DNA of 64,000 nucleotides from Verrucomicrobiia bacterium. GTDB lineage: Bacteria > Verrucomicrobiota > Verrucomicrobiia > Limisphaerales > JAEYXS01. Numbering within the stretch: the first letter of the stretch is position 1; each line of letters opens with the position of its first letter. Both the position numbers and the translations under genes were made by a program. The stretch is taken from NCBI GenBank assembly GCA_036405135.1, contig DASWYF010000039.1:1-64000 (forward strand), written 5' to 3'. Positions 49,352-49,878 of this stretch are shown here, piece after piece. The notes under the pieces are model-generated. The model did no database searches and was not told the origin of the DNA. It was given only the letters and a program-made list of their open reading frames with translations.

Positions 49352-49404
49352 CTAGCTTGGCTTCATCCGATTTCTTAAAATAACGCCTGTGTGTGAAAAC
49401 AAAA

Positions 49405-49428
49405 AATCCCTCAGACTCACATCTGAGG
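49405..49428 (-). terminator. Hairpin after the tRNA-fMet fragment
   Basis: A CCTCAG-type hairpin (CCTCAGATG...CTGAGG) followed on the minus strand by GATTTTTTG, duplicated from the intact tRNA locus. Confidence 0.75.
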
Positions 49429-49440
49429 AACTTTGAAATT

Positions 49441-49493
49441 GGTTGCGGGGCTAGGATTTGAACCTTGGATCCTGCATGCGGGATTATGAGCCT
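49441..49493 (-). pseudogene. tRNA-fMet 3' fragment (tRNA pseudogene)
   Basis: On the minus strand it reads AGGCTCATAA, then an altered 18-nt segment containing GCATGC, then AAGGTTCAAATCCTAGCCCCGC and AACCA. Anticodon stem pairing is lost and no acceptor 5' strand or D arm is present. It cannot form a tRNA. The same hairpin terminator follows it as follows the intact tRNA. Confidence 0.82.
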
Positions 49494-49751
49494 GCACTCC
49501 GCGTCAGACCGGTCATCCGATAAAATCCATCTCCACCCTTCTGCCGTTTCAGCTCATTCTCCAGCTTTTTTCGCCTCACTTAATGTCATCGAACTGCTTA
49601 CCCATACCAATCGCCACGACCCGCGGTTCTTGGTCCATTTGGACACCCCACTATTGTGATCCACCAAACGCTGCTCCACATCCTCAGACAACCCGATGTA
49701 GAACCGCCCTTCAGTATTCTGAATCACATAAACTTGGCAGCTCTTTTCCAT
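49484..49751 (-). pseudogene. GIY-YIG nuclease-superfamily protein, frameshifted at A6
   Basis: From ATG 49751 the product reads MEKSCQVYVIQNTEGRFYIG, with the Y and Y..G pattern of the GIY-YIG core, then QRLVDHNSGVSKWTKNRG. It stops at 49554 after SEAKKAGE. The expected tail (KLENELKRQKGGDGFYRMTG, then LTRSAGS) is in the +1 frame and ends at a TAA at 49484-49486. Removing one A from a run of six would join the parts. The tail ends inside the copied anticodon loop of tRNA-fMet. The protein may be dead, or made by slippage at A6. An in-frame TTG at 49763 is a possible earlier start. Confidence 0.82.
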
Positions 49752-49770
49752 CCCTTGATACAAAAGAATC

Positions 49771-49792
49771 CCTCAGATTCACATCTGAGGGA
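49771..49792 (-). terminator. Terminator of tRNA-fMet
   Basis: CCCTCAG-atgtgaat-CTGAGGG hairpin followed by ATTCTTTTG on the minus strand, immediately 3' of the tRNA. Confidence 0.8.
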
Positions 49793-49801
49793 TCTTGAAA
49801 T

Positions 49802-49878
49802 TGGTTGCGGGGCTAGGATTTGAACCTAGGACCTTCAGGTTATGAGCCTGACGAGCTACCGGGCTGCTCCACCCCGCG
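49802..49878 (-). tRNA. tRNA-fMet (initiator, anticodon CAT)
   Basis: A full 77-nt cloverleaf begins CGCGGGGTGGAGCAGCC. The unpaired first C opposite A marks bacterial initiator tRNAs. The anticodon stem is GTCAGG/CCTGAA with loop CTCATAA, and the T loop is TTCAAAT. CCA is encoded at 49802-49804. It is closely similar to E. coli tRNA-fMet. Confidence 0.96.

Follow-up and report, generated by a model that had tools for sequence, protein, structure and literature searches.

The window, a 64,000-nucleotide stretch of a contig from a Verrucomicrobiia bacterium, carries on its minus strand, in this order, a tRNA-fMet gene, a trailer with a terminator-like hairpin, a GIY-YIG nuclease gene, GGCTCATAA, a 14-nt hairpin, a copy of the tRNA 3′ part and a second trailer (Table 1). 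An initial annotation of the sequence had described the tRNA 3′ part and its terminator as present twice, 362 nt apart, with the nuclease gene between them. We measured this direct repeat at 76 nt (49394-49469 and 49756-49831, 88% identical, spacing 362), spanning the tRNA 3′ part and the terminator hairpin. A chance origin was ruled out by the repeat search, blastn and recurrence of the repeat in relatives. The inverted 17-nt copy beyond the second trailer is possibly an older remnant of the array. Just past the element lies a 6S RNA gene (RF00013, 58 bits, E 1.6e-10, above the gathering threshold; 49058-49237, plus strand). Elsewhere in the window, at 34841-34854, TCCCGCATGCGGGA forms the same palindrome as the fMet-class hairpin and is followed by TAATGAGGC; no tRNA copy was recognised there. 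The window's own genome also holds a small GIY-YIG gene 109 nt downstream of its tmRNA gene (L003; G000 contig C30, 2974-3174).

Table 1 Features of the tRNA-fMet locus in the window
Feature	Position	Strand	Basis
Intact tRNA-fMet (CAT)	49802..49878	-	ARAGORN; Rfam tRNA 63.3 bits, E 5.4e-13
tRNA trailer with terminator-like hairpin, copy 1	49756..49801	-	Direct repeat D1; sequence
GIY-YIG nuclease gene, ATG at 49751 (TTG at 49763 also possible), TAA 49484-49486	49484..49751	-	Sequence, Pfam; intact orthologue G002/L006
GGCTCATAA, copied tRNA-fMet anticodon 5′ strand and loop, containing the stop codon	49484..49492	-	Sequence; family pattern
Hairpin TCCCGC-at-GCAGGA (one mismatch) in place of the anticodon arm 3′ strand; perfect in relatives	49470..49483	-	Sequence; survey of relatives
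tRNA-fMet positions 52-77 (T-arm, acceptor 3′ strand and CCA), copied exactly	49440..49465	-	blastn
tRNA trailer and terminator, copy 2	49394..49439	-	Direct repeat D1; 88% over first 40 nt
17-nt exact copy of the tRNA-fMet anticodon arm (TCAGGCTCATAACCTGA), inverted orientation	49335..49351	+	Repeat search, blastn

The nuclease gene of the window does not have an intact reading frame. As written, the ORF ends early at a TGA; if one A is dropped from the A6 run at 49566-49571, where an extra A breaks the frame, it stays open to the TAA at 49484-49486 inside GGCTCATAA, and the read-through protein (A6 read as A5) matches PF01541 with E = 3.5e-14. G002, a genome of the same genus, has an uninterrupted frame at the same site (L006), ending in RSAGS-TAA within the same GGCTCATAA, together with a perfect hairpin (TCCCGC-at-GCGGGA) and the same neighbourhood of tRNA-Thr, tRNA-fMet and gene. 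Over the stretch before the frameshift, dN/dS between the two genes is 0.10. The window copy is either a decaying member, with a frameshift and a mismatched hairpin, or one that combines a single sequencing error with a single hairpin mutation. The end of the frame in the TAA of the copied CTCATAA, read from the window after one frameshift, recurs in the family, 24 of 37 fMet-linked genes stopping exactly there, and the KRQKGG..TGL..GS tail that the initial annotation had named is the family consensus in an alignment of relatives.

Surveys of relatives, of the order and of the phylum yielded about 100 distinct small GIY-YIG genes, and in Verrucomicrobiota distinct clades of these lie directly downstream of particular tRNA genes. 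An intact same-strand tRNA stood no more than 250 nt upstream in 47 of 96 small GIY-YIG rows, compared with 376 of 17,826 random points in the same loci (about 2%) and with about 0.2% expected from random placement if, as we assume, a genome has 50 tRNAs per 4 Mb. Related genes adjoin tRNAs, where a position away from them would have refuted the initial annotation, and the minimal layout proposed for the window, a single small GIY-YIG gene tied to tRNA-fMet, recurs in relatives. The initiator tRNA is a target, as had been suggested, but the scope given to it was too narrow: at least nine tRNA species are used, and 5′-half pseudo-tRNAs occur upstream as well. The targets are mainly fMet, with Asn, Pro, Thr, Ala, Asp, Gly, Arg and Ser besides, and one genome (G320) carries separate arrays at its fMet, Ala and Ser tRNAs.

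In a tree of 87 proteins, the tRNA labels required 15 changes against 43.4 when shuffled (5 against 28.3 for fMet alone); the fMet-linked genes formed one clade (99/96) except for a single outlying row, and the Asn-linked genes another (88/92). UPF0213-like rows in the tree were not downstream of tRNAs. A different arrangement is conserved in three genomes of genus g106 (L050, L063 and L067), whose UPF0213-like genes are preceded at about 195 nt by a tRNA-Gln on the opposite strand. The distribution of the gene is patchy (43 of 388 genomes), and a scan of genome contigs returned four loci, all from Verrucomicrobia. A search for a vehicle in plasmid and phage collections gave five plasmid records and one phage record, all below 60% identity, so that no comparable match to a plasmid or phage vehicle was found in those collections; the Salinivibrio plasmid match has no tRNA annotated alongside, in a table that lists no RNA genes.

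The full layout of a unit is an upstream pseudo-tRNA (promoter, tRNA 5′ half, hairpin), the intact tRNA, its trailer, the GIY-YIG gene and a downstream pseudo-tRNA (hairpin, tRNA 3′ half, trailer); either of the pseudo-tRNAs may be missing. In a uniform scan, 41 of 57 tRNAs with a nearby GIY-YIG gene carried pseudo-tRNAs (15 upstream, 32 downstream, 6 both), compared with 2 of 21 control tRNAs that had no such gene, both of them relics of the same element. The pattern recurs, then, which ordinary recombination with no recurrent pattern, the reading that the initial annotation had set against its own, would not show. Downstream copies consist of some 5′ tRNA sequence fused to the end of the ORF, a perfect hairpin, the tRNA 3′ half and often the trailer. 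Upstream copies are the mirror image, with the promoter region, the tRNA 5′ half, the hairpin and a decayed 3′ part (L041, L044, L045, L056, L057, L069, L071, L074 and L172).

A perfect GC hairpin (TCCCG...CGGGA, at least 6 bp) replaced the anticodon arm, or part of it, in 60 of 64 pseudo-tRNA copies. It takes the place of the whole arm in Thr and Pro, of the 3′ strand in fMet, and of the 5′ strand and part of the loop in Asn, and its stems differ (TCCCGC, TCCCGA, TCCGGC, CTCCGGTC, TCCCGACATG and others), with matching changes on the opposite side. The exact combination of CTCATAA and hairpin matched 16 times in 378 genomes, whereas the reversed control pattern had no match in the same set; of the 13 genomes with a match, 11 have the gene, and a twelfth (G149) has C-terminal gene remnants between two pattern copies. 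A genome-wide palindromic repeat family was ruled out, the hairpin pattern being almost confined to these units. The hairpin in the copies is conserved and is not mere decay. The altered bases first noticed in the window are real, yet they are more than alterations, a conserved hairpin standing there that is perfect in G002; likewise, an intact tRNA does lie on one side, but what had been called a dead 3′ fragment on the other is a pseudo-tRNA with that hairpin. The pseudo-tRNAs obtained no tRNA score with Rfam. A minihelix in which the 3′ arm of the hairpin pairs with the acceptor 3′ strand was also considered; it works in some fMet loci only. At three loci (L059, Asp; L061, Gly; L025, fMet), extra GC hairpins lie in the T-arm of the pseudo-tRNA and look as if they were accumulating in tRNA stem-loops.

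The protein is a single GIY-YIG domain, with a PF01541 match in 20 of 20 relatives and no separate DNA-binding domain. Y18, R28 and E64 were invariant and Y8 near-invariant across these 20, supplying the catalytic Tyr, Tyr, Arg and Glu of the GIY-YIG superfamily. With dN/dS of 0.08-0.21 between gene pairs, tandem copies included, the genes are under purifying selection. The AlphaFold model (pLDDT 88.9) was nearest in fold to the branched-DNA nuclease Slx1 (Z 8.2), the I-TevI catalytic domain (Z 6.3) and UPF0213, and the closest solved sequences were UPF0213/YhbQ-like (1zg2, E 2.8e-10; 1ywl, E 2.5e-9). These last proteins are of similar single-domain size, but are not tRNA-linked in the tree. 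Matches to PHROG endonucleases were weak. Kinship with a structure-selective nuclease makes it plausible that the enzyme recognises hairpin or cruciform DNA.

Some units stand alone and others form tandem arrays; solo repeats and relics also occur. Tandem arrays comprised three units at Thr (L047/L056), three nearly identical units with a 329-bp period at Ala in G320 (the third truncated), two at Ser spaced by 413 bp, and three at fMet with an extra solo repeat (L111); solo repeats measured 60 and 69 bp (L007 and L069). In the tandem pair of L022, the first gene is sister in the tree to the gene of L021 and not to the adjoining copy, which suggests that the two arrived separately at the same tRNA.

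A comparison of occupied and empty tRNA-fMet loci had been proposed at the outset. As the G001 assembly of the window's genus had no tRNA-fMet match, genus g43 was used instead, and there G044 has an empty tRNA-fMet behind an upstream gene that also precedes the occupied site in G654 and G614. The nuclease gene, like a free-standing homing endonuclease, stands beside a specific target and is present or absent at orthologous sites.

Pseudo-tRNA 3′ halves were far closer to the tRNA of their own locus than to others (identity 0.981 against 0.814), as were trailers (0.807 against 0.402), with 0 of 10,000 permutations reaching either value. The repeats therefore derive from the local gene or have been homogenised with it. 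Because the two 3′ halves of a locus are nearly identical, no foreign inserted 3′ end, which was the proof for the fungal mORFs, is seen, and local duplication or gene conversion is needed.

We read the locus as one decayed example from a family of minimal elements that target tRNA genes, in which a nuclease would cut the tRNA gene and the unit would be copied or amplified by recombination through its tRNA-derived arms; we give this reading a probability of about 0.58. That a recurrent minimal element exists is strongly supported, and homing is likely, judged by analogy with known systems; regeneration of the tRNA in the manner of homing or of an integrase, as the initial annotation proposed, is likewise something that we infer by analogy. 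Each unit, about 350 bases in all, joins a single small nuclease gene of the GIY-YIG type to a partial tRNA copy marked by the hairpin. Its nuclease would make a break near the anticodon arm, either in the tRNA gene or in DNA structures to which that gene gives rise, and homologous recombination would repair the break, with the outward-facing tRNA halves acting as homology arms. The unit would be copied in or amplified, and an intact tRNA regenerated each time. The outward-facing parts of the pseudo-tRNAs are the conserved ones (the 5′ half and promoter on the left, the 3′ half and trailer on the right), and so would be the very arms that repair of a cut tRNA would use. A hairpin in place of the anticodon arm would leave the pseudo-tRNAs uncuttable and useless as tRNAs.

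Several observations count against this proposal. The intact tRNA in a carrier should stay a target, which leaves self-protection unexplained; in some classes (L016 and L062) the gene precedes the intact tRNA; and at six fMet loci (L008, L009, L012, L020, L028 and L030) the unit is not beside an intact tRNA. Four of the genomes concerned were checked: in G098, G363 and G628 the tRNA shares the contig and lies 5-75 kb upstream, and in G064 it is on a different contig. What exactly the hairpin does, and why the two 3′ halves agree, also go unexplained.

A tentative alternative, which we hold possible but would not bet on, is a new class of element of about 350 bp. Here a single-domain GIY-YIG protein and a palindromic hairpin would suffice for insertion into the anticodon arm of a chosen tRNA gene. 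The element would leave the resident tRNA gene in two halves, 5′ and 3′, each capped by a hairpin, would provide a tRNA in its place and would build cassette-like arrays, with the hairpin serving as the element's own terminal repeat and recognition site. Overall, we regard the family as probable homing-type elements with a real chance of forming a class of their own.

Local segmental amplification without any transfer between genomes beyond inheritance is, in our view, rather unlikely. A resident GIY-YIG gene beside a tRNA would break DNA, and recombination between the tRNA and the tRNA-like 3′ end of the gene would duplicate the segment of tRNA 3′ half, trailer and gene, as with SegB in phage T6. 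This would account for the nearly identical units of the Ala, fMet (L111) and Thr arrays and for repeats that extend exactly to the gene start codon (L006, L029 and L037), and it has both the tRNA-like gene end and the SegB precedent in its favour. It does not account for pseudo-tRNAs that lie upstream and share the hairpin, for a patchy distribution in which some orthologous sites are empty, for the non-sister tandem genes of L022 or for the conserved hairpin itself.

The repeats might instead act as RNA, in a toxin-antitoxin or regulatory RNA module in which pseudo-tRNAs and hairpins act on the GIY-YIG transcript, by processing, stabilising or regulating it, or neutralise what it encodes, with mobility secondary. 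Paired changes that keep the hairpin, the tRNA promoter region retained in upstream copies, and short tandem pseudo-tRNA repeats ahead of the gene (L007, L042 and L069), superficially like type III antitoxin repeats, would all suit such a role. We nonetheless think it improbable: the pseudo-tRNAs lack a tRNA score, GIY-YIG enzymes are known as DNases, and conserved outward halves beside decayed inward parts are more in keeping with DNA homology arms than with a folded RNA.

Duplicated tRNA 3′ ends are common at tyrosine-recombinase islands, so the tRNA copy could be an ordinary attR and the GIY-YIG gene leftover cargo of a larger island. In G628 (C20), G363 (C160), G098 (C1) and G013 (C40), 5-75 kb do lie between an intact tRNA-fMet and a 3′ half displaced from it, which starts near the anticodon loop, and these stretches are likely to be ordinary integrative islands using tRNA-fMet. 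As an account of the family this idea is largely refuted and has very little probability left, since nine tRNA species bear the same one-gene unit with a common hairpin, no integrase lies between the repeats, and upstream 5′-half copies are not something that islands make.

Equally remote is a domesticated host repair nuclease that lies near tRNAs by chance amid recombination debris, for although purifying selection, a fold close to Slx1 and a derived tRNA-free lineage in family f7 speak for it, different tRNAs are tied to different clades, the gene occurs in 43 of 388 genomes, and there are arrays, relics and an element-specific hairpin. That lineage (L015, L018, L121-L124, L128, L129 and L131) is long-branched and nested with the fMet clade; two of its members, L015 and L018, have lost catalytic Tyr and Arg positions (FFVG, no HN), and it is perhaps a domesticated derivative.

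If the reading as tRNA-targeted homing-type elements is right, essential tRNA genes across a bacterial phylum have been colonised repeatedly, with the tRNA protected by design, by what would be, to our knowledge, the smallest nuclease-based elements. Three questions would become testable: how a selfish nuclease lives on a target that is invariant and that the cell cannot lose; whether GIY-YIG enzymes of a single domain select their DNA by its sequence or by a hairpin structure; and what gives rise to pseudo-tRNAs and arrays of tRNA genes in bacteria. Annotators should take note that ORF ends and tRNA-like repeats of this kind would be element parts and not random decay. In a literature search that mostly did not cover subscription papers, no account turned up of GIY-YIG units on bacterial chromosomes that are linked to tRNAs and carry hairpin pseudo-tRNAs.

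Known systems share parts of this organisation. Tyrosine-recombinase islands also have an intact tRNA on one side and a 3′ tRNA copy on the other, and use the same site in tandem. In contrast to islands, which carry an integrase inside their att repeats, the units described here have a GIY-YIG ORF only between the repeats, no recombinase and a length of about 350 bp, as well as a hairpin in the copy and 5′-half copies. In Synechocystis, a group I intron with an anticodon-specific endonuclease occupies tRNA-fMet (Bonocora and Shub 2001, cited in PMC3984707); that intron interrupts the tRNA and is spliced, whereas here the tRNA is uninterrupted. A group I intron with a homing endonuclease was ruled out, the tRNA being contiguous and Rfam giving no group I match at these loci.

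The mORFs of fungal mitochondria, at atp6, atp9, cox2 and nad3 (Allomyces, Glomus), have a displaced 3′ end behind a regenerated gene, with a GIY-YIG enzyme in atp9 (PMC3630166). They resemble our units in that an endonuclease ORF follows a regenerated intact target and has the displaced target 3′ end downstream. They target protein genes, with a foreign 3′ end inserted and the native end displaced, whereas here both copies match the local tRNA (0.981 identity within a locus), the copy bears a hairpin, and 5′-half copies lie upstream too. With no foreign 3′ end, we do not file the family among the mORFs.

SegB, a free-standing GIY-YIG homing endonuclease of phages T4 and T6, is linked to tRNAs, and its breaks cause tandem amplification (PMC13096335; Brok-Volchanskaya 2008, as cited in PMC3984707). 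Its gene, like ours, lies beside tRNA genes, and its tandem amplification runs through microhomology between tRNA and gene end; self-protection is likewise left without an answer (PMC13096335). SegB belongs to phages, acts on broad tRNA isotypes, is a larger protein and has no hairpin pseudo-tRNA reported; the units described here reside in bacterial chromosomes, with one tRNA per clade. As precedents, the mORFs and SegB each show one half of the logic that we propose.
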